Part shown: positions 2,319-23,054 of the stretch, one piece after another
Layout: the number at the start of each line of letters is the position of its first letter
Position numbering within the stretch: the stretch's first letter is position 1
Assembly (NCBI GenBank): GCA_019913005.1
Contig: JAIOHL010000150.1
Coordinates: 1-64,000 of the forward strand
DNA length: 64,000 nt
From: Anaerolineae bacterium
GTDB taxonomy: Bacteria; Chloroflexota; Anaerolineae; Aggregatilineales; J027
Reading direction: 5' to 3'
Program-made: the position numbers and the translations under genes
The notes under the pieces: generated by a model
What the model saw: only the letters and a program-made list of their open reading frames with translations
Told to the model about the DNA's origin: nothing
The model's database searches: none

Positions 2319-2328
2319 TAATATAATG

Positions 2329-5848: not shown

Positions 5849-5858
5849 GCAAGTTCTC

Positions 5859-6021: not shown

Positions 6022-6645
6022 ATGCGTATCAGAAAACTGATTCTTGCCGTTATTATTTGCCTAGCTGTCCTCGCCCTATTCCCTGCACATCATTCGCCTG
6101 CCCAAGCCAGTGGCACATGTAATGGGGTACTGCATACTGTACAACCCGGTGAAAATCTCTACCGCATTTCGCTTGCCTACCATGTGCCAATGGATGTAAT
6201 TGCCAGCGTCAACGGTATCACCAACTATTCTTTGATTTATGCGGGTGCCGTGTTGTGTATTCCGACTGGAACGAGCTATTATCCCTCGACCACCAGCAAC
6301 ACCTATCCCGGCGTCGTAGTGATTCCCGTTACTGTGACCACCTATCCCACCTACCCAACGACGAATTACCCGACCTATCCAACCTACCCCACGTATCCGA
6401 CCTATCCCGGTTATCCAAGCTATCCGACCTACCCAACGGTAACTTATCCAACATCTACTCCCTATTTCCGTCCCTGTATATTAGGACTAGAGTGCCGGCC
6501 CGATCAGACACAGTATATGTATGTAAATGGTCGTGAAATCTGTGTTGCCGCCAAATACACCGCGAATGGCATTGGCTGGGTGGAGACGGATCGTATTTGG
6601 TGCAATTGGATTGATGTGTTCCGTGCTGCCAATCCTGCTCCATGA
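6022..6645 (+). CDS. Secreted LysM-domain protein with Tyr-Pro-Thr repeats
   Basis: This 207-residue protein has a clear signal peptide (about 1-30, cleavage near AQA-S). A single LysM domain at about 37-80 follows (HTVQPGENLYRISLAYHVP then LIYAGAVLCIP); LysM binds peptidoglycan or related glycans. Residues 95-155 are a low-complexity tract of YPTYPT units. The tail of about 50 residues contains four Cys and several Trp, perhaps a small disulfide-bonded domain. A good ribosome site (AGGAGG) precedes ATG, and a TATAAT at 5984-5989 may be its -10. Likely an envelope protein; its specific role is unknown. Confidence 0.85.
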   Translation: MRIRKLILAVIICLAVLALFPAHHSPAQASGTCNGVLHTVQPGENLYRISLAYHVPMDVIASVNGITNYSLIYAGAVLCIPTGTSYYPSTTSNTYPGVVVIPVTVTTYPTYPTTNYPTYPTYPTYPTYPGYPSYPTYPTVTYPTSTPYFRPCILGLECRPDQTQYMYVNGREICVAAKYTANGIGWVETDRIWCNWIDVFRAANPAP

Positions 6646-6700
6646 CTCCCTTTAAGCTATCCCGCTGAAACTGCCATAATGCCAGCTATCTACACCGCTA

Positions 6701-6737
6701 CTACCCTCAGCATCAAAGTTTAGTGACCTGAGGGTAG
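6701..6737. repeat. Perfect 10-bp inverted repeat upstream of the receiver-TadZ gene
   Basis: CTACCCTCAG at 6701-6710 and CTGAGGGTAG at 6728-6737 are perfect complements with a 17-base gap. Neither strand shows a T-run. It lies between the LysM gene and the next start at 6851, so it could be a rho-dependent end or an operator. Confidence 0.5.
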
Positions 6738-6850
6738 GGTGCTTCCAGCGCTGAATTCCTCCGAATGTTACTTGCGTCCTATCCCAAATTTCCCTACAGT
6801 TGTTTAGAATTTGTATGCGTGTGAAAGACCATTCAGCAGGAGGCCATGCC

Positions 6851-8074
6851 ATGCCTGATAAAATTCGTATTATGATTGTGGACGATGTTGAAACCAGCCA
6901 AAAAGGATTGGCACGGCTGCTCTCTTTCGAGCCAGATATGGATGTTATTGGTTTTGCCGGAACGGGGTCTGAGGCCATTGCCAAAGCCCAAATGATGAAA
7001 CCAGATGTCATTTTGATGGATATCAATATGCCGGATATGGATGGCCTTTCGGCAACAGAGGAAATTACCAAGCTGGTGGCGTGCTCGATTGTCATGATCT
7101 CGGTGCAGAGTGACCGTGACTATATGCGACGGGCCATGCAAGCCGGTGCGGTGGATTTTTTGCCCAAACCGCCCTCAGCAGACGAGCTATATGCCACTGT
7201 CCGCAATGCCTATGAGCGCCGCCCTAAGATTGTGGCGGGGTCAGCCCAAACCGATACTACTCAAACAAGCAGCGGCCATATTATCGTCGTTTACAGCCCA
7301 CAAGGGGGTTCTGGTGTAACGACGGTGGCGGTAAATATTGCGGGTTGTCTCTTGAGCCAACAAGATCGCACGGTATTGGTAGATGCCAATCTGCAATTTG
7401 GGGATGCGGCGGTACATCTTGATGTCCGTACCGAACGCAATATTATTACCCTTGTGCAAGCCTCTGGTGATCTCGACCCCGATTTAATTGAAAATGTTCT
7501 TATGACGCATGGTAGCGGTATGCGAATTTTGGCGGCTCCGCGTGGTCCCAGTGAAGCCTCAGAAGTCACCGCCGAACGATTTCTCCAAATCGTTCATACC
7601 CTAGCAAATCAATTTAGGTATGTGGTTGTAGATACATCTACACATTTGGATGGGATCACGATTGGGTTGCTCGAACTTGCCGATGTGGTGGTACTGGTAG
7701 GCGTTCCCACTTTGCCATCGGTCAAGAATATCAAGCTGGTTTTGGAACTCTTTGATGAAAGCCCGGACTTTGATAAGGGCAAAGTTATCTTTGCAATGAA
7801 CAAAATTCCGGTGGACAAAAAATCAGGGGCGTTGAATCCAGAGGAAATCAGCAAGAGCCTGCGCCTGCCTATCAAGAGCGTAATCCCTGCCCTCGAAAAA
7901 CCGTTTTTGGAATCCCTCAATCGGGGTGTGCCCGTGATTGTCAATCCACGCCAATCTCCGGGCCGCGAACTTCAGCAATTGGGCGAGGAAGTCAAAAAAA
8001 TTCTGACTTCGGTGGAGGTTGAAGAGGCCGTTACCGCCGATAAACCCAAGCCTCGTAAGGGCCGTTTTGGATAA
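6851..8074 (+). CDS. Response-regulator receiver fused to a TadZ/CpaE-type ATPase-like domain
   Basis: This 407-residue protein starts with a CheY-like receiver (1-125) carrying the acidic pair at 11-12, phosphoacceptor Asp57 in LMDINMPDMDG and Lys106. Residues 131-395 form a ParA/MinD-like SIMIBI fold: VVYSPQGGSGVTT at the P-loop, LVDANLQFGD, and VVVDTS. This order is that of CpaE/TadZ, which place Tad/Flp pilus machinery or other polar assemblies. Both lysines of the deviant Walker A motif are missing (Gln141 and Val146), so ATP hydrolysis is doubtful. The start at 6851 has AGGAGG eight bases upstream; longer in-frame starts lack this. No pilus genes adjoin it. Confidence 0.85.
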   Translation: MPDKIRIMIVDDVETSQKGLARLLSFEPDMDVIGFAGTGSEAIAKAQMMKPDVILMDINMPDMDGLSATEEITKLVACSIVMISVQSDRDYMRRAMQAGAVDFLPKPPSADELYATVRNAYERRPKIVAGSAQTDTTQTSSGHIIVVYSPQGGSGVTTVAVNIAGCLLSQQDRTVLVDANLQFGDAAVHLDVRTERNIITLVQASGDLDPDLIENVLMTHGSGMRILAAPRGPSEASEVTAERFLQIVHTLANQFRYVVVDTSTHLDGITIGLLELADVVVLVGVPTLPSVKNIKLVLELFDESPDFDKGKVIFAMNKIPVDKKSGALNPEEISKSLRLPIKSVIPALEKPFLESLNRGVPVIVNPRQSPGRELQQLGEEVKKILTSVEVEEAVTADKPKPRKGRFG

Positions 8075-8077
8075 GGC

Positions 8078-8686
8078 CTAGTAGGGAAATTCACGCATAA
8101 AAGTGTCCAAAGATGGGCGGCCCTGTGTGCTGGTTGCGACAAAAATCCATTGTTCGCGTGTCCACGCATAAACAACCCGCCCATCTGATAGTTCATACAA
8201 CGTATAACTGGTGTTCTCATCCAAGAGCAAAAATTCTGGGGGAGTGGTCAGACGTGCGCTTGTCCCCATCTGCTCCACAAATGCCATCGCGCTTGGTTTA
8301 TCAACCGCATAATAAATATTCAAGATAATGGTCGCGTTGTCCGAATCGGTGTAGATGCCAGTAACGCCGGCTGCTGTATTCGCTTGCCCACTCACTGAAG
8401 TCCGCTGAAATTTACCCACCTGCTCAGGGCCAGCGTAGGTATTGGGGTCTTCCGCTGGAAATGGCTTCCCCGGTGAAAAATAGGGGCCGGGATCAACAGC
8501 CGTGCGGGTGGGTTGAGGCCAAAATGTAGGAGTAGCAGGAATCGCTGAGGTCGCATTGCCTGAATTACTGCCGGAAGAATCATCTGTTTTGTTATCGTCT
8601 TTGTCATCCCCACAGGCGCTCAAAATGAAGGAGGTCATCACCAAGAGAACAAGCCACAAAAGAGAATAATAGCGTTTGGAATTCAT
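8078..8686 (-). CDS. Lipoprotein of unknown function
   Basis: The 202-residue product has a lipoprotein signal peptide with lipobox LSAC (lipidated Cys25). An Asp/Lys/Ser/Asn-rich linker of about 30 residues follows, then a domain of about 140 residues rich in beta strands and ending with a Trp-containing core. The linker is like that of the other lipoproteins in this window, which suggests an outer-surface anchored protein. AAAGGG lies just upstream of ATG. It converges with the receiver-TadZ gene, with only 3 bases between the stops. I do not recognise the globular domain. Confidence 0.75.
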   Translation of the reverse strand: MNSKRYYSLLWLVLLVMTSFILSACGDDKDDNKTDDSSGSNSGNATSAIPATPTFWPQPTRTAVDPGPYFSPGKPFPAEDPNTYAGPEQVGKFQRTSVSGQANTAAGVTGIYTDSDNATIILNIYYAVDKPSAMAFVEQMGTSARLTTPPEFLLLDENTSYTLYELSDGRVVYAWTREQWIFVATSTQGRPSLDTFMREFPY

Positions 8687-8725
8687 GCGTGACCCTTTGT
8701 TTCACACAAAATTTACGCTACCATC

Positions 8726-9376
8726 CTACCCTTTTCTGGCACGCTGCACAAATACTTGGAAGGGCATTGCCAAATGGTCTGCCCGTGTCTCATTACGTTT
8801 CAAGGTTTCAGCGTTGGCACGCTCAAAATCATGCAGCAAAGCAATGAGGGTATCTTCTTGGTCAGTGGTTGGTTCGCCATTAAATTCAGTGACAATGGTG
8901 GCAATTTGACCGCGTGCGATGAATATCCAGCACTTAGCCGCGACCTCTACTACCATGATTGGATAGTCTTGATTTTGATTGAATGTCTTTTTCTTAATTT
9001 GGTCAATCAATTTTTCCAGTAGCGCTTTGACTTTGGCACGTTCGGCGGTGATTTCACCCAATGTCTCGATACAAGCACTTGTGCGGTTATGATAAATAAT
9101 CATGCCAACGGCTTTGGCTTGCAGGCGCTTGCGAATCATCTGCGTTTTTTCGCTATCCAAGATTTCTGTCCAGCTAGTAGGATCAGCCTCGGCTAGTAGC
9201 AGTTTTACGCCATTGATTTGCGACTGATAGCGTTCATAAATGACATGGAATTGTTCGCGGTTCAGCTTGCCATCGGCAAAGTCCAAGACCAGTTGCTCCA
9301 TTTTTGAACGGGTTTCGGTAATAAAACCCCGCGCTTTGACCACTGCATTCTGCGAATTATCCACAATGGTATTCAT
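8726..9376 (-). CDS. Conserved-looking cytoplasmic protein, function unknown
   Basis: This 216-residue protein has no signal peptide or membrane segment. The first 125 residues are predicted long helices rich in Glu, Lys and Gln (probable coiled coil around 20-120). Residues 135-180 look like a compact alpha/beta part (PIMVVEVAAKCWIFIARG). The ribosome site is unusual but GGGACGAGG precedes the ATG. It reads away from the unknown gene at 9549 across a 172-base shared upstream region containing an A/T-rich tract, so the two may be co-regulated. I do not assign a function. Confidence 0.7.
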   Translation of the reverse strand: MNTIVDNSQNAVVKARGFITETRSKMEQLVLDFADGKLNREQFHVIYERYQSQINGVKLLLAEADPTSWTEILDSEKTQMIRKRLQAKAVGMIIYHNRTSACIETLGEITAERAKVKALLEKLIDQIKKKTFNQNQDYPIMVVEVAAKCWIFIARGQIATIVTEFNGEPTTDQEDTLIALLHDFERANAETLKRNETRADHLAMPFQVFVQRARKG

Positions 9377-9548
9377 AACCTCGTCCCTTTAACGCCGCAA
9401 ACTTGATACTAGTTTCATCATAACACGGAGAAGAATATATTTAAAATTAATTCACAATAAATTTATAATTTATTCATGGAGTTGGCGAACTGAATGCAGC
9501 ATGTTATTATGGCCTTAGGAATTACCAAAAAAATCGAGGTACAACGAC

Positions 9549-10100
9549 ATGCCCATTTCAGAGGATCGGCTTTATGCTGATGGTAATGCCTACATTTTGG
9601 TAGCCGCTCACCAAACAGTCCGCCATGCCCTATATGAATGGAGTCGAGGTGCAACTCGTTGGGGCACACCCCGTGAGTGGTGGTGGCTGATTATTGAACA
9701 CGAAGACACTCGATTTGCGGCCATTCCCTTTGAACAACTGCGTGATCTACTAAACCAATCAGAAATTACGATGGATACCTGCCTTGCCGATTTGCCAGAG
9801 GCCTTGCAGCAATCGGATAGTTGGCAACTTAACCCCGGTGTCATTCACAGCCGGGTTGTTGATAAAAACACCCTAACGACAGCAGTCGCCTTACAACAGG
9901 CGGAAGAAAGCCCCGGCCAACTTTTGGTCGTAACCGCCCAAGGGCAATGTGTGGGAATCATCAGCAAACGCAGTCGGAGTTTTGCAATGGCAACCTTGTC
10001 CCTCCTTAAAATGATTGAGGAAGATGCAAAAAAACAGTCGAGTTCTACCGTTTCGGCGGATTCTAAGGCGATGCCCGAACAGGACAGCAAGAATAATTAG
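9549..10100 (+). CDS. Unknown soluble protein with CBS-like C-terminal motif
   Basis: The product is 183 residues without export or membrane signals. Trp is clustered in the N-terminal part (TPREWWWLIIEHED). The stretch around 120-140 (LLVVTAQGQCVGIIS) resembles the second half of a CBS motif, and the C-terminal 25 residues are a polar, likely disordered tail. A partial or degenerate CBS pair that senses adenosyl ligands is possible but weakly supported. GAGG lies about ten bases before the ATG. It is divergent from the 8726-9376 gene. A TATAAT at 9464-9469 in the shared region may serve this direction. Confidence 0.68.
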   Translation: MPISEDRLYADGNAYILVAAHQTVRHALYEWSRGATRWGTPREWWWLIIEHEDTRFAAIPFEQLRDLLNQSEITMDTCLADLPEALQQSDSWQLNPGVIHSRVVDKNTLTTAVALQQAEESPGQLLVVTAQGQCVGIISKRSRSFAMATLSLLKMIEEDAKKQSSSTVSADSKAMPEQDSKNN

Positions 10101-10163: not shown

Positions 10164-10193
10164 TTGACATAGATTGACCACTTTGCATAAAAT
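10164..10193 (+). promoter_or_regulatory. Sigma70-type promoter for the binding-protein/sensor block
   Basis: A perfect TTGACA (10164-10169) and TAAAAT (10188-10193, five of six) are separated by 18 bases. This is the best promoter in the 331-base gap 10101-10431. A second TATAAT lies at 10226-10231 with only a weak -35. Use of the first would leave a leader of about 230 bases before ATG 10432; I see no recognisable riboswitch or terminator in it. Confidence 0.6.
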
Positions 10194-10431
10194 AAAGTTA
10201 GCGTTCCATTGAATCCAATCGTTTATATAATAGTTTCTTAAGGGTTTCCTTTTGATTATTATTATAAGAGGCTTACAATCGCAGTTCATAAGAACTGACA
10301 AAAAGTAGTCATTCGTCACTCATTTTTAGGCGAGACGGCTAAATTGAGTCTAAGTAAAGAATGTAAAATATAATGAATATGCCTCATCAATTTTCTTCGT
10401 TTGTGTGACCATAACTATAAGGAGGGGATTC

Positions 10432-11391
10432 ATGCCCGAGTTTTTGAGACCCAAGTTTAGTAAGCTCGGTTCACTTGTGTTGATTCTCCTACTCCTGCTG
10501 CTTGCTATCACAGGCTGCAATGATGACGACAAAGACGATGATTCCTCGGATTCTAATAACGCGACGCCGCAAACCTTCACGGTTGGACTACTGCTCTCTG
10601 ATTTAAGTAACCCGTTTTTTGTCTCAGTGCAAGAAGGCGCTCAAAGCGCCGCAACCCGCCTCGGCATCACCCTCGTGGTGGAAGACGCCAAGAATGATGT
10701 TGCCACCCAGATTACACAGGTACAGAACTTAATCGCTCAACCCGTCAATGCGCTGCTTATTAATCCAGTGGATGGAGATGGAATTGTTCCTGCCATTCAA
10801 GCCGCCAACGCTGCGGGTATTCCGGTTTTCACAATTGACCGCAGTGCTTCCGGCGGAGATGTCGTCGCCCACATCGCCTCCGATAATGTGGCGGGTGGTT
10901 CTATGGCCGCTGAATATTTGGCGACCAACATTAACAGCGCGGGTAATGTTGTCGAGTTGCAAGGGATTGAAGGCACTTCGGCGGCCCAAGATCGCGGCAG
11001 TGGGTTTAATGATAAAATCGCCACCTATGCCGATATTGATGTTATTGTGCAGCAGACCGCCAATTTCAGCCGAGAGGAAGGTCAGGCCGTTTTTGCCCAA
11101 ATATTGGCTGATAACCCGGATATTGTAGGGGTGTTTGCCCATAATGATGAGATGATTTTAGGTGCGATTGATGCGGCCAAAGAAGCAGGTCGCGCTGCCG
11201 ATATTAAATTTGTGGGCTTTGACGGAACTGAAGGTGCGATTGAGGCGATTGACGCAGGGGATCTTCTGGCAACCATTGCCCAGCAACCTGCTGAAATGGG
11301 CCGTATTGGGGTCGAGACCGCCGACAAGGTACTAAAAGGTGAGACCGTTGAAAGTTATATCCCAGTTGATCTAGCGGTGATTAGTCGCTAG
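10432..11391 (+). CDS. RbsB-type periplasmic sugar-binding lipoprotein
   Basis: This 319-residue lipoprotein (lipobox ITGC, Cys29) is followed by an Asp/Ser-rich linker and a two-lobed substrate-binding protein of the ribose/autoinducer-2 (Peripla_BP_4, SBP class I) type. LSDLSNPFF at the start of lobe 1, VEDAKND, ALLINPVDGD, FTIDR, and lobe-2 FVGFDGTEGA are classical RbsB family positions. Such proteins usually deliver sugars to an ABC importer or to a membrane sensor. There is no permease or ATPase beside it; instead, two sensor genes follow within 45 bases, so a sensory role is the likelier inference. Start is ATG 10432 behind AAGGAGGGG. Confidence 0.88.
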   Translation: MPEFLRPKFSKLGSLVLILLLLLLAITGCNDDDKDDDSSDSNNATPQTFTVGLLLSDLSNPFFVSVQEGAQSAATRLGITLVVEDAKNDVATQITQVQNLIAQPVNALLINPVDGDGIVPAIQAANAAGIPVFTIDRSASGGDVVAHIASDNVAGGSMAAEYLATNINSAGNVVELQGIEGTSAAQDRGSGFNDKIATYADIDVIVQQTANFSREEGQAVFAQILADNPDIVGVFAHNDEMILGAIDAAKEAGRAADIKFVGFDGTEGAIEAIDAGDLLATIAQQPAEMGRIGVETADKVLKGETVESYIPVDLAVISR

Positions 11392-11435
11392 GGGAATCTA
11401 TAAAGCAGTGCAATTCATTTTGTTGGGAGGCAGTA

Positions 11436-12971
11436 ATGCGATTCCGATTTTCAATTAGGCAGCGTATCGCTCTGATTTTCACGTTACTCGTGCTGCTGCT
11501 GCTCGTTACAGGTGCTATTGCCCTGCTTTTTACTCAATCTGCTGAAACTACAGTGGATGACATTCAAAATGGCTCGAATGACATTAATCAAGCCAACAAT
11601 CTGCGTGTCAGTTGGTTGAGTATGGCCTCGACGATTGACCGTTTGTTGTTAACCCGCCAATCCAGCCTGATTGATACCAATCTAGCGGCTAACCGCAGTG
11701 ATTTTGAGGCGCGTTTGGCAAACATCCAAGCTGAGACATTAGGCACGAGCAGCAGTACCCAAGAAGAAAATACCCAACTGACCCAATCTATTGGGGGGTT
11801 GGGGACTGAATTATTGTCCTATGTGGATGAGGTGATTGCTCGCGTTCGAGCGAGTGAGTGGACACGTGCCCAAAGTATTCGCCATACCGATTTGGCATCG
11901 GTAGAGCGTCGTTTTCTTGCCGATGTTGATGAATTGGGAAGCAATGTTTCAACCGACGTGACGGAAGCCATTCAACAGTCCACCGATACCCAAAATCAGT
12001 TCCGCACTTTCGTGATTGCTATCGCGGTGTTTGGGGTCCTCATTGCCCTAATTGTTTCGGTTATCACGACACTCAGTGTAACCCGTCCTTTGGCAAATCT
12101 CATTGCCACCACTCGTGAGATTCAGGCAGGCGATTTTTCTAAACGAGCCAACGTGAGTGGCCGAGATGAATTGAGCAACTTGGCGCAGTCATTCAATAGT
12201 ATGACCGAGCAACTGCAAAGATCGTTCTCTTCGCTCGAGGAGCGCGTCCAAGCCCGCACCCGTGAACTAGAAGCTGTGTTTGCTGTAAACACCCAAGTTG
12301 GTACGATCCTTGAAGTAGATCGTCTGCTGCAAGACGTGACGGACATGATTAAGGAGCGTTTTGACCTCTATCATGCCCATATTTTCCTCTATGACCCCAA
12401 AGCTGAAGCGCTTATTTTGACTGCCGGTGCAGGTCATGTGGGTCGCCAGATGGTCACAGAAGGCCGAGTCATTAGTATCAATAATCTGCGCAGTATCGTG
12501 GCCCGTGCGTCGAGAACTCGTGCAGGGGTAGTGGTCAATAATGTAGCTGAGACTGTGGACTTTTTGCCGCACCCCTTACTCCCCAACACTCGTTCAGAAT
12601 TGGCTGTGCCACTTGTTGCACGTGGTCGTCTATTAGGGGTGCTGGACGTTCAAAGTGATGAATTTGAGCACTTTTCGCCTGAAACACTATCATTAATGGA
12701 AATTCTAGCGACACAAGTGGCGATTGCTTTGAACAATGCGACCTTGTATGAGGTGGCCGAGCGTACCAGCCGCCGTGAACGTACGATTGGTAATATTACG
12801 CAGAAAATTCAGGCCGCTGTGAGCATAGACGAAATTTTACAATCCACGATTCGTGAGCTTGGCAAAGCCTTGCGGGTTCCACATACAGCGATTGAACTTC
12901 GCCTACCCGAAAACATTTCGTTATCGGAGGATGGTGAGGCTTATGGGATGGCGGAGCGAGAAAATGTCTAA
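11436..12971 (+). CDS. Membrane receptor with HAMP and GAF domains, no kinase domain
   Basis: The 511-residue protein has TM1 at about 10-32, an extracytoplasmic helical sensor region (33-188) like the four-helix bundles of chemoreceptors, TM2 at about 190-213, a HAMP domain (213-266), a coiled coil, and one GAF domain (about 285-445) of the same subtype as those in the next gene (LYHAHIFLYD, FLPHPLLPNTRSELAVP, GVLDVQSDEFEHF). About 65 residues of a second GAF-like start follow before the stop. There is no histidine kinase or methyl-accepting region, so it must signal through a partner, probably the giant kinase downstream. GGGAGG precedes ATG. Confidence 0.85.
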   Translation: MRFRFSIRQRIALIFTLLVLLLLVTGAIALLFTQSAETTVDDIQNGSNDINQANNLRVSWLSMASTIDRLLLTRQSSLIDTNLAANRSDFEARLANIQAETLGTSSSTQEENTQLTQSIGGLGTELLSYVDEVIARVRASEWTRAQSIRHTDLASVERRFLADVDELGSNVSTDVTEAIQQSTDTQNQFRTFVIAIAVFGVLIALIVSVITTLSVTRPLANLIATTREIQAGDFSKRANVSGRDELSNLAQSFNSMTEQLQRSFSSLEERVQARTRELEAVFAVNTQVGTILEVDRLLQDVTDMIKERFDLYHAHIFLYDPKAEALILTAGAGHVGRQMVTEGRVISINNLRSIVARASRTRAGVVVNNVAETVDFLPHPLLPNTRSELAVPLVARGRLLGVLDVQSDEFEHFSPETLSLMEILATQVAIALNNATLYEVAERTSRRERTIGNITQKIQAAVSIDEILQSTIRELGKALRVPHTAIELRLPENISLSEDGEAYGMAERENV

Positions 12972-13103
12972 GCGAATGGATTCCGATAGCCGCCGTTATA
13001 GAGGTGACCTCCATAGCGTTTCGGTTGACTATAATCCCCTTATCAATGGAATATATAGCCGTTTGCAGCGTTACAGTCATCAAAATGGGAAAGAAGTAAA
13101 CCT

Positions 13104-16100
13104 ATGAAAGCAATGCGTACTCCAACAGAGACCCAAGATAGGCTCCCACTCTGGCGACAGTTGCGTTGGAGTCTAGTGCTTTCTTTTATCTCGTTGGCGG
13201 TGCTGCCCATCGTAATCATCAGCGCTATCTTGATTCAGCAAGCGAACAACCAAGCCGAAGATCAGATCTTGAGCCAGCTTGAATCGGTTGCGACATTGAA
13301 GGAACAAGAACTGCAACGGTGGCTGGGCAATGGACAGAACGAACTTGAATCCGTGATTGGTGATCCGGTACGGAACCAAACCATACTTCAATTGTTAGCC
13401 GCCCCCGACGATAGCTCCGAATTACAAGTTGCCCTAAATGATGCTTTGTTGGCTGAGAAAAATATTTCCGACCATTTTCGGGAATTTATTCTTTACACTC
13501 CAGATGGCCGCATCGTAGCCGCCTCGGATGACACTCAAATCGGCAAAGTGCTGACGCTGCAACCGTATTATCAGGGTAGCATCACCAATGTAAACTACAT
13601 CCAACCCCCCTATTATGAAATCGGGAGTGGGGAGTTGACGATGTATGAAACAGTCCAGTTGATCAACAATGCTGGCGAATTTGTCGGTGTGATGGCTGCC
13701 CCGCTCAATCTTGACACACTGAACGAGATTATGACGGAGCGTGGTGGTCTGGGGGATACGGGTGAAACATATCTGGTCAGTCTCGAAAATAATTTCCTTC
13801 TCACTGACAGTCGTTTTGAAGGATTTGAGCGTACACGTGCCTATCGCAGCGAAGGTATTGACCAAGCCCTTCAACAAAGCGACGGCTCAGGCCAGTATTC
13901 AGACTACCGCAATGTTGATGTATTTGGTGTTTACCGCTGGATTCCCGAATTACAGGCGGGTTTGCTGGCGGAGCAGGACGTTGAAGAAGCGTTGCAGGCT
14001 TCGCGTGAGTCGCGGAATACCTCGATTTTGATCGGGGTGGCAGCCACCTTGATCGCCGCAGGCACAGGGTTCTTTTTGGCGACGCGCTTGTCCCGCCCCA
14101 TCAGTTACTTGACAGGTGTTGCCAGCCGCTTGGCCTCTGGTCAACTAAACCAACGTTCTCGGATGCCCCAACGAAACGAGGTCGGGATGTTGGGGCGTAC
14201 CTTTGACCAAATGGCCGACCAGCTTGAAGGCTTGATTGGTTCATTGGAAGCCCGCGTATCCGAACGTACTAAAGACATCGCCACCACATTGGAAGTTGGT
14301 CGTTTGGCGACCAGTCTCTATGGCCGTGAGGACTTCTTGCCCAGCATTGTAGACTTTATCCGCGACAGCTTCGACTTGTATTATGTTCAAGTGTATTTGC
14401 TAGATGAAGCCAAACGGTTTGCCATTCTGCGGGCTGGTACGGGAGAGGCCGGTGAACAATTGTTGGCTCGGCGGCATCAACTCGATATGAACGAGACATC
14501 ACTGGTGTCGCGTGCAGTTGCTACCGAACAGCCAGTAGTCGTGACGGATACCCGCAATAATCCTGACCATAAACCCAACCCATTGCTGCCTCTCACCCGA
14601 TCTGAAACTGCTATCCCTCTCATTATTGCCGGCGATATTTTGGGTGTGCTCGACATGCAGTCGGAGGTGGAAGGCACATTCACGGTTGAAAATCTGCCCG
14701 CCTTTGGTGCTATGGCGACGCAATTGGCTGGTATTCTGCGTGCGACTCGCGCGTTGGAAGAAACCCGTGCTGCGGTGAGCCGCGCTGACGATATTAACCG
14801 CCGCCTGACCCGCCAAAACTGGGAAGGGTATCTTGCCAGTGTCGCACGTGGGGACGCGGTTGGTTTTAAGTATAATTTGGAAGAAACCAAACCCTTAGAC
14901 TCTGACGCGGTTCTCACTGAGTCGGTACAAGCTGGCGATGGACAAAGTTATGCCGTGCAACCCATCACCTTGCGTGGCGAAACGATTGGCAATATTCTCG
15001 TCCTCGAAGATCGAGAGCGTGAATGGTCTGAATATGAACTTTCGCTGCTGCGCGAAGTTGCTGACCTCGTTGCCCAAGCCACCGAGCAGTATCGCACGGT
15101 AGATGAGACCGAAAAACGGGCCAATGAATTGGCGATTGTGGCCCAAGTGAGTGCGACGGCGGCTTCCATTCAAGATTTGGACTCCCTCCTCCATACAGTT
15201 GCCGAACTTACCAAGAATGAATTTCGACTCTACCATGCCCATATTTACCTCCTAAGCCCCGACCAAAGTTTCTTGGTCTTGGCGGCAGGCGCAGGTGAAC
15301 CGGGTAAAGTAATGAAAGCGAGTGGTCACCGTATTCCACTCAAACAGGAATTCAGTTTGGTGGCGCGTGCGGCCCGTACCCGTCGTGGGGTGGTATCCAA
15401 CAACGTTGCTGATGCCCCCGACTTTTTGCCGAACCCACTTTTGCCTGCAACCAAATCTGAGTTGGCGATTCCAATGGTCGTTGGCGATACTGTAATCGGG
15501 GTAATGGACGTTCAAGACTCCGTTATCAATCGCTTTACCGACGAAGATGTTCGCGTGTTGACCACACTCGGTGACCAGTTGGCGGTTGCTATCAACAACG
15601 TGCGTCAATTTGAAGCGACACAGCGTCGTTTGAAGGACGCCCAAGCCGTCAATATCATCAACGAGTTCCTACGCTCCACACTAAATGACGAAGAAGCTCT
15701 CGAAAACGTCCTGCGGGTCATGATCGAAATACTTGGCTCGGACAACAGTCTCTATTCGGCTTACAATCGTGAGCGACGGCTGTGGCAGGGTGTGGTAGGT
15801 GCTGGTACTGGGATGACCACCCAATTGGCAAAGAGTTTCCAAGACCCCGCCGAATCCTATCCTCATGGCTTAGAGGCCATCGAAAAACGCAAAGTTGTCA
15901 CGGTGAACAATGCCCGTACCTATCCGAATTTCCCCGTGACAATTTTGGAGGCCCTAGGTGTCAAATCGGTTATGGTCATTCCGCTGGTCATCGGCAATGC
16001 GGCTATCGGCGTGATCTTCCTCAACTATAATGCTAACCTTCACTTCTTCACGGATGAGGAAGTCCTACTCGCCGAAAATATCGCCAACCAACTGTCCTTG

Positions 16101-19100
16101 AGTTTGGAACGGCGCGAGGCTGAAGCCCAAAATCAGTTGATTTACGATACAGGGCGTGCCTTGATTGCTTCTCGCAACGTACAAGAGCTGTTAGAGGCAT
16201 TTGCCCGCCCCATCCTCAAGAATCATCCCGGAAGCTCCAGTCTGCTCTATTTCGACAGCAAAAACCCACAGTTCCTTGATTTGGTGGCCTCGTTCAGCAA
16301 TTCGGAACAATCAACCGCCCTTCCTATAGGAGCGCGACTCAGCCTAGCGGATCTTGGCGCGAACACTACCAATACCAATGCGACACAGTTTATATCAGAT
16401 ATCACCGATCCAAACTTTGGTTTTGCCGCAGATTACATTGAAGCGATGAAATCCTTCAATACCCATGCGTATGCTAGTATCCCCCTCATCTCGGGTCAGC
16501 GCAGTATCGGGATTATTTCACTGGCATGGCCGGAATATCACAGTTTCTCACAGCAAGAAATCCTCTATTACGACGTGTTTCAATCTCAACTGAGCGCGTT
16601 GGTTGAGGTGCGTCGTTTGTTTGAAGAAACACAACGCACCGCCCGCCAGTTGAATACCGTATTGGGCGCGGTGCCCGTTATTCTGTTCTCATATGACCAA
16701 AATGGCATACTCACACTATATGAAGGCTCTGGTGTTCAGCAACAGGGCTTCGCACCGGGTCAATTGGTTGGGACATCGGTATTTGATCTCTACAAGGATA
16801 ATCCCTCTGCGGTAGAAGCTGTTCAACGATCCCTACAAGGTGAGGCATTTGTCGCTACGATTGCAGCGGGAGACACCATTTTTGAAACCCGCTATGCCCC
16901 CATCTATGATGAACAGGGTGCGCTGGCGGGTACGATTGGACTGGCGATTGACACCACCGAGCGTGAGCGGTTGCTGCTCGAAATTGAGCGTAACGCTACT
17001 CTCCTCCGTAGTGTGTTGGACACCACACCCGACTGGATTTTTGTAAAGGATCGTCACTATCGCTTCCTTTTGGTGAACGAAGGGTTTGCGAAGGATCAAG
17101 GAAAGACGATTGAGGAAGTTACCGGGAATGACGATGCCGGAATTGGCGTTCCCGAAGAGTTGATTTATGGCAATCCAGATAAGGGTATTCGTGGCTTCCG
17201 GGCCGATGACGACTATGTGTTGACGACTGGGCAAGCCGTTCATAACCCATACGACGTGGTCATCTTTGCTGATGGCACGACTCATATTATGGATACGCAG
17301 AAATTGGCGCTACTGGACGAAAATGATCAGCCCTTTGCGGTACTTGGTTTCGCCCGCGATATTACGCAGCGTATCCGTACTCAACAACGTGAGCAGTTGG
17401 CGACTGAATTGGGTCAGCAATTGGCGGCCTTGCTCAGTACGGAAGACTTGTTTATCCAGACAGTCACCAGTCTGAGCGAAATGTTGGGCTACTATCACGT
17501 CCACATTTACACCTATGAGCCAGAGACAGACAGCTTAGTAGTAACAGAAGGTCTGGGTGAGGCCGGGGCGTTTATGAAGAATGAGCGCCATCGCATTGGA
17601 ATGGATGCAGAACGCAGTTTGGTAGCTCGTTCGGCACGCGCCCTTGAGCCAATTATCGTCAATGACGTACACGAAGACCCAAATTTCCTACCCAACCCGC
17701 TGCTGCCTTATACCCAAAGTGAAGTGGCAATTCCACTGTATCAAGGCCAATCATTGATTGGGGTTTTGGATGTGCAGCACAACCAGCCCAACGCCTTCAG
17801 CCCTGAAGAAGTCGCCACGCTCTTGATTATTGCGAACCAATTGAGTGTGTCTATCTCGAATGTACGCCAGTTTGAACGTGCTGAAAAACGTGGTAATGAA
17901 CTTGAAGTGGTGTCCGATCTGAGCGCAATCGCTACCACGATCTTGGATCAAACCGAACTGCTGCAAACAGTGGCTGACCTGACCAAAGAGAGCTTCGATC
18001 TCTATCACGCCCACGTCTATCTCTTGGATGATGACCGCCAATATCTCCAATTGGCCGCAGGTGCTGGGGAAGTGGGTCGTATCATGGTGACCGAACGCCG
18101 CCGAATTGCTTTGCAGCATCCACACAGCTTGGTGGCCCTTGCTGCCCGTAGTGCCGAAGGTGTGATTTCCAACGACGTGACCGGAAGCGCCGACTTTTTG
18201 CCCAATCCACTGCTGCCCGATACCCGCTCTGAAATGGCAATCCCTATGATGGTTGCTGGTGAAGTGATCGGGGTGCTAGACGTACAATCTGCCGAAATCA
18301 ACCGCTTCTCCAACGAAGACCTCAATATTCAGACGGCTTTGGCCTCCCAATTGGCGGTTGCTGTGACCAATGCTCGCGCATTTGAGGAACGTCGTCGAGC
18401 GGAGGCATCGCTGGCAAAACGTGCGGCTGAAATTGAAGCGGTGGCACAGGTAGGTATCGCGGCCAGTACAATCTTGGATGTGAGTCAATTGCTATCCACC
18501 GTATCTAATTTGGCAAAGCAGCGGTTCAATCTTTACCATGCCCATATCTACTTGTTAGAGGAGGCCGGTCAAAATCTCGTGCTGGCGGCTGGGGCTGGTG
18601 AAGTCGGTAAACGCATGGTGGCAGAGGGACGTACTATTTCGCTCAATCAATCAACCAGCCTTGTTGCCCGTGCTGCCCGCAGTGCCGAGGCGGTTATTGC
18701 GAACGACGTGATTCTCAATGAAGACTTCTTGCCCAATCCACTGCTGCCTGATACACGTTCCGAGATGGCCCTGCCAATGATCGTCGGCGGTCAGGTCATC
18801 GGCGTGTTGGATGTCCAAAGCGATCAGCTTGACTACTTCAGCCCGGATGACGTGCAGGTGCAGTCTACACTGGCCTCTCAATTGGCAGTCGCGGTTGCGA
18901 ATGCCCGTGCCTTCCAAAGTGCCGACGAACGTGCAAAAGAATTGGCGTTGGTGAACGAACTGGGTGTCGGCATTACCTCGATTCTAGACCCTGAGCAGTT
19001 GATTAACCAAGTCGCTGAGGAGATGGCCCGCTCCTTCGATCTGTATCATATCCACATTTTTGTGGCCGATGAGATGGGGCAGGAATTGACACTAGCAGCT

Positions 19101-21038
19101 ACTCATGGACGTACTACTAGCCAATATACCCGTGAAGGGTATAAGATTCGGCTCGATGAAGAAATGAGTCTTGTCACCCGTGCTGCCATTGAACGCCGCA
19201 GCATGATTGCAAACAATGTCCGCGAAGAACCCTACTTCCTCTCTAGCCCCTTCCTGCCAGAGACGCGCTCCGAGATTTGCTTGCCGATGATCGTCGGTGA
19301 TCAACTGATCGGTGTTATTGACATTCAATCAGATGTCCTAAATCGCTTCAAAGATCAGGACGTGCTGATCTTAGCAACACTGGCCTCCCAGATCGCAACC
19401 GCTATTTCGAATGCACGTGCCTTCCAAAACGTGGAAGCGGCCCGTGCCGAAGTTAGCCGTATCTTTAACCTCTCGGCAGACATGATCGGTAGCGCTGGGT
19501 TTGATGGCTACTTCCGCAGTCTGAATCCGGCATGGACGAGAACTTTGGGTTGGTCTACCGAAGAATTGTTCAGCAAACCGTTTATAGAATTTGTCCATCC
19601 TGAAGACCGCGAACGGACCCAAGATGGCTACACTTCTGAATTGGAGCGAGGCACCTCCACGATTTCATTTGAAAACCGCTATCAATGTAAAGATGGTTCG
19701 TATAAATGGATTTCGTGGAATGCCATTCCAATTTTGGATGAGCAAACGACCTATTTTGTAGCCCGCGATGTGACCGAACAGAAAGTAGCGGAACGCCGCG
19801 AACGTTTGGCAAACGAACTCGGTCAACAATTGAGTGCCTTGCTGCAAGAAGAGGCCCTGCTCAAGGAAACAGTGGAGCAGTTGACCGAAGCGTTCGGATA
19901 TTATCATACCCAGATTTACCTTATGGATGACGAAGGTAAACGCCTTGTTCTCCGCGAAGGTGTGGGGCGTGCGGGTGAGATTATGAAGCAGCAGCAGCAC
20001 AGTCTCCCCTTACGCGCCGAACGCAGTTTGGTGGCACGGGCTGGTCGAACCATGCAACCAGTGGTCGCGGAAGACGTGGCGCTCGACCCGAACTATTTGC
20101 CCAACCCCTTGCTCCCCTATACCCGCGCTGAAGTCGCTATTCCGGTATTCGCCGGGGATCGCCTGATGGGGGTTTTGGACGTACAGCATAACACCCCTAG
20201 CTTCTTTGATCCGGGGCAAGTGCGTACACTGCTTGTGGTCGCAAGCCAGTTGGCCGTCGCGCTCTCGAACGCTGAACTCTATGCCGAGCAGTTGCGTGCA
20301 ACTGAGCAATTGCGTGAACTCGACCGACTAAAGAACGAATTCTTGGCAAGCATGAGCCATGAACTTCGTACCCCGCTAAACTCGATTATCGGGTATGCCG
20401 AAGTCATTTTGGACGGATTGGATGGGCCGCTAAATGATGAAATGGAAGAGGACGTTCATTCCATTCACCAAAGCGGTAAACTCCTGTTGAGCCTCATCAA
20501 TGACATCCTCGACCTTGCCAAGATTGAAGCTGGTCAGATGGAATTGGAATATGAGCCAGTGGACATTCCAGCATTCTTGGCGAAGGCTGTGGAAAGCTCA
20601 CAGATTTTGGTCAAGGATAAACCCGTCGAGATGCGCTCTGAAGTAACTTCTGAAGTGCGTGAACTCGACCAATTTGAGGCCGACCCCATTCGTTTGCAAC
20701 AGATTGTCAACAACCTGCTATCCAACGCTGCTAAGTTTACCGAGCAAGGCTCGATTACCGCCAAAGCGCGGCTTGAAAACGGCTCTGTCATCATCTCGGT
20801 GGCGGATACGGGAATGGGGATCGCTCAAGACAAACTCAATATCATTTTCGAGCGTTTCCGTCAAGCCGACCAATCCTCGACTCGTCGCGCTGGTGGTACG
20901 GGCCTCGGGCTTGCCATCACGCGCCAATTGATTGGGATGCACGGTGGAGATATTTGGGTTGAAAGCGAAATCGGCAAAGGCACAACCTTTAGCTTCAGCA
21001 TCCCGCTGGAACGCCGCAAAGAACCCGCTGGCGATTAA
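13104..21038 (+). CDS. Giant hybrid-sensing histidine kinase with nine GAF and three PAS domains
   Basis: This 2644-residue membrane kinase has TM1 (about 23-45), a Cache-like extracytoplasmic domain (46-305), TM2 (about 311-333) and HAMP (335-390). Approximate domain order follows: GAF1 392-549; degenerate GAF-like 559-666; GAF2 677-838; GAF3 846-1004; GAF4 1009-1172; PAS1 1179-1290; PAS2 1294-1430; GAF5-8 1431-2109; PAS3 2114-2229; GAF9 2233-2394. HisKA has phospho-acceptor His2419 in SHELRTPLNSIIG. The HATPase domain has LLSNAAKFT, DTGMGI and GTGLGL. Most GAFs share FLPNPLLP; GAF6 and GAF7 also match closely at DNA level about 177 codons apart, which suggests recent tandem duplication. There is no receiver domain; the cognate regulator is not adjacent. 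ATG 13104 has a weak GGGAAAG site; ATG 13113 is possible. Confidence 0.92.
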   Translation: MKAMRTPTETQDRLPLWRQLRWSLVLSFISLAVLPIVIISAILIQQANNQAEDQILSQLESVATLKEQELQRWLGNGQNELESVIGDPVRNQTILQLLAAPDDSSELQVALNDALLAEKNISDHFREFILYTPDGRIVAASDDTQIGKVLTLQPYYQGSITNVNYIQPPYYEIGSGELTMYETVQLINNAGEFVGVMAAPLNLDTLNEIMTERGGLGDTGETYLVSLENNFLLTDSRFEGFERTRAYRSEGIDQALQQSDGSGQYSDYRNVDVFGVYRWIPELQAGLLAEQDVEEALQASRESRNTSILIGVAATLIAAGTGFFLATRLSRPISYLTGVASRLASGQLNQRSRMPQRNEVGMLGRTFDQMADQLEGLIGSLEARVSERTKDIATTLEVGRLATSLYGREDFLPSIVDFIRDSFDLYYVQVYLLDEAKRFAILRAGTGEAGEQLLARRHQLDMNETSLVSRAVATEQPVVVTDTRNNPDHKPNPLLPLTRSETAIPLIIAGDILGVLDMQSEVEGTFTVENLPAFGAMATQLAGILRATRALEETRAAVSRADDINRRLTRQNWEGYLASVARGDAVGFKYNLEETKPLDSDAVLTESVQAGDGQSYAVQPITLRGETIGNILVLEDREREWSEYELSLLREVADLVAQATEQYRTVDETEKRANELAIVAQVSATAASIQDLDSLLHTVAELTKNEFRLYHAHIYLLSPDQSFLVLAAGAGEPGKVMKASGHRIPLKQEFSLVARAARTRRGVVSNNVADAPDFLPNPLLPATKSELAIPMVVGDTVIGVMDVQDSVINRFTDEDVRVLTTLGDQLAVAINNVRQFEATQRRLKDAQAVNIINEFLRSTLNDEEALENVLRVMIEILGSDNSLYSAYNRERRLWQGVVGAGTGMTTQLAKSFQDPAESYPHGLEAIEKRKVVTVNNARTYPNFPVTILEALGVKSVMVIPLVIGNAAIGVIFLNYNANLHFFTDEEVLLAENIANQLSLSLERREAEAQNQLIYDTGRALIASRNVQELLEAFARPILKNHPGSSSLLYFDSKNPQFLDLVASFSNSEQSTALPIGARLSLADLGANTTNTNATQFISDITDPNFGFAADYIEAMKSFNTHAYASIPLISGQRSIGIISLAWPEYHSFSQQEILYYDVFQSQLSALVEVRRLFEETQRTARQLNTVLGAVPVILFSYDQNGILTLYEGSGVQQQGFAPGQLVGTSVFDLYKDNPSAVEAVQRSLQGEAFVATIAAGDTIFETRYAPIYDEQGALAGTIGLAIDTTERERLLLEIERNATLLRSVLDTTPDWIFVKDRHYRFLLVNEGFAKDQGKTIEEVTGNDDAGIGVPEELIYGNPDKGIRGFRADDDYVLTTGQAVHNPYDVVIFADGTTHIMDTQKLALLDENDQPFAVLGFARDITQRIRTQQREQLATELGQQLAALLSTEDLFIQTVTSLSEMLGYYHVHIYTYEPETDSLVVTEGLGEAGAFMKNERHRIGMDAERSLVARSARALEPIIVNDVHEDPNFLPNPLLPYTQSEVAIPLYQGQSLIGVLDVQHNQPNAFSPEEVATLLIIANQLSVSISNVRQFERAEKRGNELEVVSDLSAIATTILDQTELLQTVADLTKESFDLYHAHVYLLDDDRQYLQLAAGAGEVGRIMVTERRRIALQHPHSLVALAARSAEGVISNDVTGSADFLPNPLLPDTRSEMAIPMMVAGEVIGVLDVQSAEINRFSNEDLNIQTALASQLAVAVTNARAFEERRRAEASLAKRAAEIEAVAQVGIAASTILDVSQLLSTVSNLAKQRFNLYHAHIYLLEEAGQNLVLAAGAGEVGKRMVAEGRTISLNQSTSLVARAARSAEAVIANDVILNEDFLPNPLLPDTRSEMALPMIVGGQVIGVLDVQSDQLDYFSPDDVQVQSTLASQLAVAVANARAFQSADERAKELALVNELGVGITSILDPEQLINQVAEEMARSFDLYHIHIFVADEMGQELTLAATHGRTTSQYTREGYKIRLDEEMSLVTRAAIERRSMIANNVREEPYFLSSPFLPETRSEICLPMIVGDQLIGVIDIQSDVLNRFKDQDVLILATLASQIATAISNARAFQNVEAARAEVSRIFNLSADMIGSAGFDGYFRSLNPAWTRTLGWSTEELFSKPFIEFVHPEDRERTQDGYTSELERGTSTISFENRYQCKDGSYKWISWNAIPILDEQTTYFVARDVTEQKVAERRERLANELGQQLSALLQEEALLKETVEQLTEAFGYYHTQIYLMDDEGKRLVLREGVGRAGEIMKQQQHSLPLRAERSLVARAGRTMQPVVAEDVALDPNYLPNPLLPYTRAEVAIPVFAGDRLMGVLDVQHNTPSFFDPGQVRTLLVVASQLAVALSNAELYAEQLRATEQLRELDRLKNEFLASMSHELRTPLNSIIGYAEVILDGLDGPLNDEMEEDVHSIHQSGKLLLSLINDILDLAKIEAGQMELEYEPVDIPAFLAKAVESSQILVKDKPVEMRSEVTSEVRELDQFEADPIRLQQIVNNLLSNAAKFTEQGSITAKARLENGSVIISVADTGMGIAQDKLNIIFERFRQADQSSTRRAGGTGLGLAITRQLIGMHGGDIWVESEIGKGTTFSFSIPLERRKEPAGD

Positions 21039-21070: not shown

Positions 21071-21103
21071 GGGCAGGCAGGACAACACCTGCCCTTGTTG
21101 TTT
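21071..21103 (+). terminator. Terminator after the giant kinase gene
   Basis: GGGCAGG (21071-21077) pairs with CCTGCCC (21088-21094) around a 10-base loop, followed by TTGTTGTTT. It lies between the rightward kinase gene and the leftward deacetylase gene and favours the rightward direction. Confidence 0.6.
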
Positions 21104-21104: not shown

Positions 21105-22130
21105 TCAGCCCAATTCATGCCTATTCAAAAGCTGTTCTAATAAGTCATTGTCCAGCGGCGGATTTTGTTTGGCTTTGCCGATGGGGTCTTGTATCGTGTC
21201 TCGCCCCAACAGCGCATAGCCGAGATTTAAATTGGCATGACTCAACACTTCAAGGTCATAGCCGCCCTCGGTTACGAAGATAATCCGTCCTTCACACAAC
21301 ACCTGCGCCGTTTGAATTAGCCAGCGCGTCATATTAGCAAACATCGGCAGGGATAACTGCAAATTTGCCAATGGGTCGCGCCAATGAGCATCAAATCCAG
21401 CCGAGATGAACATCAACTCTGGTTGAAAACGGGCCAATGCAGGCAAAACGAGATGTTGATACAAGGTTTCAAAAGCCGCGTCACCAGCACCTGCGGAGAG
21501 TGGAATATTCATCGTAAAACCGTGCCCCGCCCCGCTGCCGATTTCAAGAAGACTGCCAGAACCGGGATAGAGCGGCGATTGATGCGAGGAAATGAAATAA
21601 ACGGAGGGGTCTTCGTAAAAAGCGTCTTGCGTGCCATTGCCATGATGCACATCAAAATCCACGATAGCGACTCGGCCAAATTTCGCTTGGGCATATCGTG
21701 CTGCAATCGCAATGTTGTTCAGCAAGCAAAATCCCATGCCGCGTGTCGGAGTGGCATGATGACCGGGAGGCCGAATCGCTGCATAGCCATTATCGGCCCG
21801 TTTTTCCATCACCGCATCCACTACATTGAGTAATCCCCCGACGGCAATTCGCGCCAGTTCATAAGACTCTGGCAGGACATAGGTATCAGGGTCAAGCCCC
21901 ACCGTGCGTTCTTGTGAGGCGATCCATTGCAACACGTCCAAATACTCAGTCGTATGGACACGCTGAATTTCTTCGGGGGTGGCTTCACGGGGGTCAATCA
22001 ACATAAAATCTGGGATAATGCCAGATTCTTCTAGTCGCTTTTGGATGGCCGTCAAGCGTCCGGCATGTTCAGGGTGTCCGGGTAGGGTATGGTGGGCAAA
22101 GCGGGTATCGGTAAAAAATGCGGTGGTCAT
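21105..22130 (-). CDS. Histone deacetylase/AcuC-family zinc amidohydrolase
   Basis: This 341-residue arginase-fold enzyme belongs to the histone deacetylase superfamily. Catalytic His pair PPGHHA is at 121-126, and zinc ligands are Asp160 and His162 in DFDVHHGNGT and Asp247 in SAGFDAH. Bacterial members deacetylate acetylated proteins (AcuC on acetyl-CoA synthetase), acetylpolyamines or other small amides; the substrate cannot be decided from sequence. Length is typical of bacterial HDAC-like proteins. It is the last gene leftward before the kinase terminator, and its upstream neighbour is tRNA-Met with its own terminator, so it is probably monocistronic. Confidence 0.9.
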   Translation of the reverse strand: MTTAFFTDTRFAHHTLPGHPEHAGRLTAIQKRLEESGIIPDFMLIDPREATPEEIQRVHTTEYLDVLQWIASQERTVGLDPDTYVLPESYELARIAVGGLLNVVDAVMEKRADNGYAAIRPPGHHATPTRGMGFCLLNNIAIAARYAQAKFGRVAIVDFDVHHGNGTQDAFYEDPSVYFISSHQSPLYPGSGSLLEIGSGAGHGFTMNIPLSAGAGDAAFETLYQHLVLPALARFQPELMFISAGFDAHWRDPLANLQLSLPMFANMTRWLIQTAQVLCEGRIIFVTEGGYDLEVLSHANLNLGYALLGRDTIQDPIGKAKQNPPLDNDLLEQLLNRHELG

Positions 22131-22149
22131 AGGGTGGGTGTCCAGAAAA

Positions 22150-22174
22150 CAAAAAACTCGCCGTTGAAGCGAGT
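22150..22174 (-). terminator. Terminator of tRNA-Met
   Basis: On the minus strand ACTCGC and GCGAGT (22174 to 22156) form a 6-bp stem with a 7-base loop, followed by six T. It lies 20 bases past the tRNA 3' end. Confidence 0.75.
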
Positions 22175-22194
22175 GTACATCAATTTATTGAGAG

Positions 22195-22266
22195 TGGCGA
22201 CGACTGGATTTGAACCAGTAACCAACGGCTTATGAGTCCGCTGCTCTGCCATTGAGCTACGTCGCC
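22195..22266 (-). tRNA. tRNA with CAT anticodon, probably elongator tRNA-Met
   Basis: Acceptor GGCGACG (22266 to 22260) pairs with CGTCGCC (22202 to 22196), with discriminator A at 22195. The anticodon loop is CTCATAA (anticodon CAT) and the T arm has GGTTCAAATCC. The first pair is G-C and the body resembles elongator tRNA-Met, but CAT could also be tRNA-Ile with lysidine. The anticodon stem ends in an A-G mismatch next to the loop. CCA is not encoded. Confidence 0.9.
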
Positions 22267-22382
22267 AGTATATTTAATATTATAGCGGAGGGGATGGGGG
22301 TGTCAATGCCTCGCTTTTGTCGAGTGACCTAATTCACTATACTTGTGGAAATTTTGTTTTTTGAGGCATAGGACAAAAAATC

Positions 22383-23054
22383 GTGCGACACTATCCGCGT
22401 ATTTTACTGGGAATAATACTGATTTTCGTTAGCTCGATGGCCTGCTCACTTTCAACCACCAAAGACGATCAAGAGACAGATGTTGAGCCAGCCAGCACCG
22501 ACAATTGGGTCAGCTTCCAAGCTACCAATGTCAGCATCGGCGCACCTCCCAACGATTGGCTATTGGTGCCAACCGTACAAGGTGAGATTGACGCGCTGTT
22601 TACCCAACTAAATGCGTCCGACACCTCGGTAGCCAATGTGTTTTTGGCTTTATCAGGCGTGGCAACAAGCAATGGTTATCATCTGATTTTGATGAAACGC
22701 GATGGGACAGCATGGGCAACCGTTTATTCTGAACCATTGCCGTCTACCTATGAGGTTTTTTTAACGACTACCAAAGAGGATTGGGAGCGACGCGGCATCC
22801 CGATTTTGAGTGAGCGCGAGGTCAATTTGCCAATGGGCAAGGCTGTCCGCCGCGAATTTGAACTTCCGGTTGGGCAAGCAACACGCTGGCAGGATAGTTC
22901 TTCAACAGCGAGTCAGGCGCTTGACCGACAATATCAATATCTTCTCGCAATCGGTAGCGAAGTTTATACCCTGACTTTTGATGCTCAAGCGGCTGACTTT
23001 AATGGCTATAAAGCCATTTTTCAGGCCATGGCGCTTTCTTTTTCGGTTAATTGA
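22383..23054 (+). CDS. Lipoprotein of unknown function
   Basis: A 223-residue protein starting at GTG, with a signal peptide and lipobox SMAC (Cys21), a short acidic linker, then a compact domain of about 170 residues (NWVSFQATNVSIGAPPNDWLL, VRREFELPVGQATRWQD, YLLAIGSEVYTLTFDA). The tail, with phrases such as VYTLTFDAQAADF and a final AMALSFSVN, is typical of PsbP/MOG1-like folds in bacterial lipoproteins, an inference from pattern only. A TATACT -10 lies at 22338-22343. The 40-base leader has no strong ribosome site. Confidence 0.72.
   Translation: MRHYPRILLGIILIFVSSMACSLSTTKDDQETDVEPASTDNWVSFQATNVSIGAPPNDWLLVPTVQGEIDALFTQLNASDTSVANVFLALSGVATSNGYHLILMKRDGTAWATVYSEPLPSTYEVFLTTTKEDWERRGIPILSEREVNLPMGKAVRREFELPVGQATRWQDSSSTASQALDRQYQYLLAIGSEVYTLTFDAQAADFNGYKAIFQAMALSFSVN

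Follow-up and report, generated by a model that had tools for sequence, protein, structure and literature searches.

Sensory binding proteins are a known kind of protein, and several systems resemble the locus under study. XylFII-LytS(-YesN) of Clostridium combines a sugar-binding protein without transporter and a sensor with a four-helix bundle. LytS itself is a kinase. In Escherichia coli the ribose-binding protein RbsB, which also serves a transporter, docks on the TarH-type four-helix bundle of the chemoreceptor Trg. The Trg sensor was joined to the cytoplasmic part of EnvZ in the engineered hybrid Trz1 (PMC5557919). GlnH-GlnX-PknG of Corynebacterium glutamicum leads from a lipoprotein via a four-helix-bundle membrane receptor to a separate kinase (PMC9769921), and CuaD-CuaS-CuaR of Ruminiclostridium cellulolyticum includes a second, sensory sugar-binding lipoprotein encoded in an operon with a two-component system (PMC10384115). 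Finally, LuxP of Vibrio is a binding protein of the Peripla_BP_4 family (PMC12268683) and acts with a membrane kinase, LuxQ, that has a cache-type domain. Our literature search on ribose chemoreceptors returned nothing, and the matches listed for Chloroflexi sensors contained nothing on the present system. New in comparison with the described systems are the ribose-type cassette, the kinase-less receptor and the apparent grafting onto a conserved operon with an enzyme-receiver protein as its putative output.

The locus is located within a stretch of 64,000 nucleotides, in the following termed the window, which is contig C48 of the draft genome G000 (7.6 Mb, 365 contigs). A sequence-only reading had described an RbsB-type lipoprotein without permease or ATPase, a HAMP-GAF membrane receptor and a giant histidine kinase, all encoded in one direction behind a good promoter, and these assignments were confirmed, for receptor and kinase by their Pfam domains. 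The following features were identified (window positions):

10164..10193, plus strand: sigma-70-type promoter TTGACA-18-TAAAAT, scoring 11/12; both hexamers and the 18-bp spacing kept in 5/5 genus members, spacer divergent in G002
10432..11391, plus strand: RbsB-type lipoprotein P0001, putatively sensory (ORF listed from GTG 10405); 10/10 pocket residues, member of the paired clade (99/99)
11436..12971, plus strand: kinase-less receptor P0002, composed of TM1, four-helix bundle (TarH-like), TM2, HAMP, GAF and a truncated-GAF-like tail
13014..13060, plus strand: probable 3' remnant of a deleted gene for an NMT1/THI5-type binding lipoprotein, seen by alignment; gene intact in G002 and G003
13104..21038, plus strand: giant histidine kinase P0003, composed of dCache, HAMP, about 10 GAF and 2-3 PAS domains, HisKA and HATPase_c, without receiver domain
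21076..21093, plus strand: intrinsic-terminator-like stem followed by a T-rich tail; stem kept in 5/5 genus members

For P0001 the GTG at 10405 is probably the wrong start and ATG 10432 the best one, because AAGGAGG stands before the latter; position 10432 had already been given as the start in the sequence-only reading. The lipobox ITGC ends at Cys38 counted from the GTG (Cys29 from the ATG). The spacing of "within 45 bases" stated earlier applies to lipoprotein and receptor, whose genes are separated by 44 bp, but not to receptor and kinase, with a gap of 132 bp. A terminator between the genes had been named as an argument against a common unit, and no terminator-like site was found in either gap (P0001-P0002, P0002-P0003). 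The three genes follow each other uninterrupted in 3/5 genus genomes (G000, G001, G004), and G002 and G003 carry an additional lipoprotein gene in the receptor-kinase gap. Neither a permease nor an ATPase adjoins P0001 among the ten flanking genes scanned (291-10100 and 21105-23054), and RbsA and RbsC are thus not encoded with the RbsB-type gene in the window.

The leader of approximately 230 nt (window 10194-10431) contains blocks conserved in all five genus members. Upstream of P0001 no leader RNA element matched Rfam at gathering thresholds, the sole match at these thresholds being a tRNA at 22195-22266. The region is flanked by genes for a homogentisate-dioxygenase-like cupin protein (window 2326-3630, plus strand) and a histone-deacetylase-family protein (21105-22130, minus strand). 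At 6800-8074 (plus strand) a receiver domain is fused to a ParA-like ATPase, a protein which we take to be CpaE/TadZ-like; in G007 (L066) the gene for a close homolog immediately precedes that for a kinase-less receptor.

P0001 belongs to the Peripla_BP_4 fold family (221.6 bits, Pfam cut-off 35.1). Ribose-binding proteins are its best solved relatives, with 49-50% identity to RbsB of E. coli, and it is identical to the latter at all ten pocket positions (N13, F15, F16, D89, R90, R141, F164, N190, D215, Q235). R90 is presumably a pocket position as well; for most of the ten, PMC5557919 assigns the residue to the pocket, the cleft or the binding of ribose. Among the 32 Peripla_BP_4 matches in G000, a few of which are interrupted by contig ends, P0001 is the only one with a complete pocket, and the others reach at most 7/10. 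Three far paired loci (G427, G397, G417) show 9/10, and with one pocket residue different the ligand may therefore not be ribose everywhere. With 299.1 bits, P0001 scored below the cut-off of 337 of the NCBIfam RbsB equivalog. Some RbsB-type proteins bind AI-2, which is therefore conceivable as a ligand of P0001, too; P0001 reached 45.5 bits against the LsrB model, whose cut-off is 384.

The extracytoplasmic domain of P0002 (residues 1-190) was used as query to establish how regularly such a lipoprotein gene accompanies this type of sensor. The domain is rare and was detected in 11/396 sampled genomes of the class, and its closest named relatives are Anaerolineae/Chloroflexi metagenome bins. 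Together with five order relatives found in the P0002 search and one named genome (L156), a total of 17 loci was available. Sixteen of them have an RbsB-type gene immediately upstream, in the same orientation and at a distance of 1 to 175 bp (one of these loci, G058, is interrupted by a contig end). A binding-protein gene beside a membrane sensor without transporter is also the arrangement of binding-protein-dependent sensor systems such as XylFII-LytS, TorT-TorS and CuaDSR. The exception is a receptor in G365 without upstream RbsB-type gene, and its congener G161 has one. As control we used 15 receptors with a similar GAF part and other sensor domains, of which one at a contig start was left out; none of the remaining 14 was preceded by an RbsB-type gene, and seven had another, PF04392-like family upstream. 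The near-obligate pairing (16/17 vs. 0/14) corresponds to a Fisher p of 6e-8, or 7e-7 when the genus is counted once (12/13). After removal of five distant paralog rows, all 16 paired lipoproteins grouped in a single clade (99/99), the sister group of which consists of tandem RbsBs (95/90) from rbs-type transport operons; the other genes of these operons were named by size and position. In the first tree, which included the five paralogs, the paired clade was not recovered (label changes 2) and not rejected (AU p 0.34), and paralog C288 joined the paired set on a long branch. The incomplete tandem copy tran_G046_n was left out of both trees. Because of the pairing and the separate clade, the sensory use of P0001 is well supported, and a sensory unit, not a transporter remnant, is the best explanation of the three genes.

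P0001 might nevertheless serve an ABC importer whose genes are located elsewhere, its position beside a receptor being incidental. Its ordinary RbsB sequence would fit this explanation, as would the 31 BPD_transp_2 matches in G000. A CUT2 operon with the order RbsA-RbsC-binding protein-RbsD is indeed present, split over contigs C26 and C69 and followed by transketolase- and sugar-kinase-like genes (named from sequence alone). The end of C26 and the start of C69 hold pieces of what looks like one binding-protein gene, with the contig break seemingly inside. The intact copy (G001:C10:37271-38737) encodes a tandem binding protein of two near-identical halves with 9/10 pocket residues in each half, and the pieces in G000 are 33-38% identical to P0001. 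This operon is the one found in G000 whose binding protein has a ribose-like pocket, as read from the G001 copy. G000 thus possesses a pentose-type importer that does not need P0001, since the operon carries its own tandem binding protein; a matching transporter elsewhere had been another objection raised in advance. At those other paired loci viewed with RbsA/RbsC seeds, neither gene adjoins the paired lipoprotein; the remaining loci were viewed without these seeds. The pairing with one sensor domain and the separate clade of the nearest transporter RbsBs also speak against an importer. After examination of all 32 Peripla_BP_4 matches and of the RbsD-bearing operon, we judged a transporter in trans to be unlikely.

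The partner suggested by the pairing is the extracytoplasmic domain of P0002. The receptor matched HAMP (55.7 bits), GAF_2 (62.8 bits) and, with a narrow pass, TarH (26.9 bits, cut-off 25.2), and its Pfam matches include neither HisKA nor HATPase nor an MCP signaling domain. Compared by sequence with solved structures, the sensor domain gave nothing significant (best E 0.037). It was modeled as a four-helix bundle (AlphaFold2, pLDDT 87.8, 7 sequences), and Foldseek and VIA-align matched this model to histidine-kinase and chemoreceptor bundles, with a VIA-align Z of 16.2 for 4k0d and, for LytS in the XylFII-LytS complex, a Z of 15.6 (rmsd 1.9, 121/122 residues); as four-helix bundles match each other readily, these Z-scores show the fold and are weak evidence of a shared mode or partner.

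The locus shares with XylFII-LytS the transporter-less sugar-binding protein and the four-helix-bundle sensor, to which P0001 is predicted to dock. Unlike LytS, P0002 is a HAMP-GAF protein without kinase, and a separate giant kinase is encoded; a kinase that would itself meet the binding protein is found in the relatives of family f4 and in G052. With RbsB-Trg it has in common an RbsB with conserved pocket and a TarH-type bundle, whereas the signaling domain of Trg was not found in P0002. GlnH-GlnX-PknG resembles it in the sequence of binding lipoprotein, membrane receptor with four-helix bundles and separate kinase, but PknG is a cytoplasmic Ser/Thr kinase and P0003 a membrane histidine kinase that has a sensor domain of its own. 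CuaDSR differs in its binding protein and its conventional kinase-regulator pair.

The two parts of P0002 have different affinities. Residues 1-190 match all 12 other paired-type receptors and none of 15 kinase-less receptors. The GAF domain, by contrast, is 43-59% identical to kinase-less receptors vs. 35-45% to the paired type, and the tail 51-72% vs. 28-45% or no match. In the HAMP-GAF tree the genus groups with the kinase-less receptors (96/90; 98/97 for the inner set), although the HAMP domain itself is nearer to the paired type. The identity switches over at about residues 265-285, after HAMP. Judged from these comparisons, P0002 is a chimera, in which an RbsB-paired sensor with HAMP is joined to the GAF-tail part that belongs to the kinase-less receptor of an order-wide operon. 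Given the position of the switchover and the affinities of sensor and tail, the lipoprotein gene was apparently acquired jointly with the sensor-TM-HAMP part, and nature seems to have made a join like that of Trz1. We considered a pseudogene or a truncated receptor and rejected both, because the tail is kept in 5/5 genus members (90-100%) and in 15/15 kinase-less receptors of other genera (51-72%). In G052 the kinase itself carries the same cassette, in the place taken in relatives by an NMT1-type binding protein and a dCache domain. In family f4 the cassette comes with a kinase of its own, behind which receiver proteins are encoded. Lipoprotein and sensor thus seem to move between signaling operons as a plug-in input module. 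Long receptor arrays were seen in other families (L138, L140, L141, L142), in which RbsB, NMT1 and PF04392 binding proteins stand amid kinase-less HAMP-GAF receptors, pointing to many inputs and one output.

The kinase P0003 comprises 2644 amino acids with dCache_1 (77.8 bits), HisKA (77.0 bits), HATPase_c (105.3 bits), HAMP, PAS and 9-10 GAF stretches in Pfam. Its H, N and G boxes are intact (HELRTP at 2419, N box at 2536, G boxes at 2568 and 2598). A hydrophobic peak is located at residue 955. The histidine kinase domain falls within the operon-kinase clade of 17 rows (100/99), which also contains the G052 kinase, and when G000 was searched with the corresponding domain of the operon in G019, P0003 ranked first among 112 matches (304 vs. 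237 bits). On this comparative basis P0003 is the ortholog of the kinase of the order-wide operon. The dCache kinase of relatives is usually preceded, without a gene in between, by one for an NMT1/THI5-type binding protein, as is the case in G002 and G003. Only an apparent 3' end of this lipoprotein gene is left in the window, G001 and G004, and no ortholog was found elsewhere in G000 (best 42%). The kinase was apparently once preceded by an NMT1-type lipoprotein, the putative partner of the P0003 cache domain, which this lineage has lost.

These observations bear on the proposal that the lipoprotein presents its ligand to the receptor or the kinase in the manner of LuxP and LuxQ. P0001 could signal directly to the cache domain of P0003, with P0002 as an accessory: P0003 has a dCache_1 domain, both genes lie in one presumed operon and LuxQ uses a PDC-type domain (PMC8534201). 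The usual upstream partner of the dCache kinases, however, is the NMT1/THI5-type protein, also in G002 and G003, and kinases directly following an RbsB-type gene (G052, f4) carry a four-helix bundle instead of the cache domain, which makes direct signaling to the cache domain very unlikely. Of the earlier proposal, the sensory use can thus be retained, with the four-helix bundle of the receptor as the putative partner in place of the kinase cache. The analogy to LuxP/LuxQ and AI-2 was not upheld, as the pocket matches ribose-binding protein, the partner domain is a four-helix bundle and the receptor is devoid of a kinase. LuxP-LuxQ shares the binding-protein family and the cache-type domain of its membrane kinase, and differs in the inferred partner domain and ligand; P0003 reached 208.1 bits against the LuxQ model, confined to the histidine kinase part, at a cut-off of 1200. 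In view of domain content, the LuxQ score and the ribose pocket, LuxPQ/AI-2 was rejected as closest match.

The preferred reading, in which P0001 acts via the P0002 bundle, requires that P0002 addresses P0003. The sensory pair might be real and P0002 might instead act on another partner or respond to its GAF ligand, as it has no kinase and the genome offers 112 matches to a histidine kinase domain. Against this, several genera encode kinase-less receptors of the same cytoplasmic type upstream of either the orthologous kinase or the gene for its cache domain, and no further signaling gene was seen to be common to these loci. We therefore consider a partner other than P0003 unlikely, and note that P0003, having its own cache domain, could ignore P0002.

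A candidate for the output is encoded downstream of the kinase in seven fetched operons: a PLP enzyme that resembles threonine synthase and is fused to two receiver domains (PALP-REC-REC, about 705-731 amino acids). In G000 this gene is not adjacent to P0003; an ortholog accompanied by a lone receiver, with no kinase nearby, was found at G000:C198:35810-37939 (L107:9795-11933, minus strand). Two motifs of a threonine synthase with solved structure, SFKDR and ASTGN, are retained in it and presumably hold PLP. At E <= 1e-60 the PALP-receiver family, in two types, was seen in 52/61 relatives, and at E <= 1e-100 in 34/301 genomes of the phylum; the literature matches listed contained nothing on point for such fusions. 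The second type, PALP with one receiver, is encoded at G000:C21:42687-44627 (L109) with a giant GAF histidine kinase on one side and a receiver-HK protein on the other, and L122 and L123 show a similar gene order.

The gene structure, pocket identity, near-obligate pairing, single clade, chimeric receptor and kinase orthology were computed here, and the steps of the following mechanism up to the pairing rest on this comparative evidence. P0001, anchored outside the membrane, would bind a ribose-type sugar, most likely D-ribose, and in its closed form would dock on the four-helix bundle of P0002, as in the pairs RbsB-Trg and XylFII-LytS. The signal would pass through TM2 and HAMP to the kinase-less GAF-tail stub and from there in trans to P0003, the cytoplasmic part of which is predicted to form a rod of GAF and PAS domains and which would also take input from its own extracytoplasmic cache. 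P0003 would probably phosphorylate the receiver domains of PALP-REC-REC and of the lone receiver, both of which adjoin the kinase in relatives and are encoded on another contig in G000. We regard this course, from sugar sensing by P0001 via the P0002 bundle and P0003 to PALP-REC-REC, as probable. A more far-reaching interpretation is speculative and rather doubtful at present: Anaerolineae may possess a portable cassette of RbsB-type lipoprotein gene and four-helix-bundle-TM-HAMP that recombination has placed on two or more different proteins of a single conserved operon, namely on the kinase-less receptor in the present genus and on the kinase in G052, so that two lipoprotein-fed sensors would converge on one giant histidine kinase, whose output would be phosphorylation of the threonine-synthase-like two-receiver enzyme rather than transcription, with outside ribose directly setting an amino-acid enzyme.

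The findings suggest a natural and repeatedly rewired exchange of sensor modules, with binding protein and sensor domain moving as a pair. For genomes with a hundred kinases this offers a strong comparative means of assigning binding proteins to their receptors, and it predicts the ligand (ribose), the docking partner, a kinase-less co-receptor acting in trans and an enzymatic output. If true, an extracellular sugar would act on an enzyme of amino-acid metabolism via phosphorylation and without transcription.
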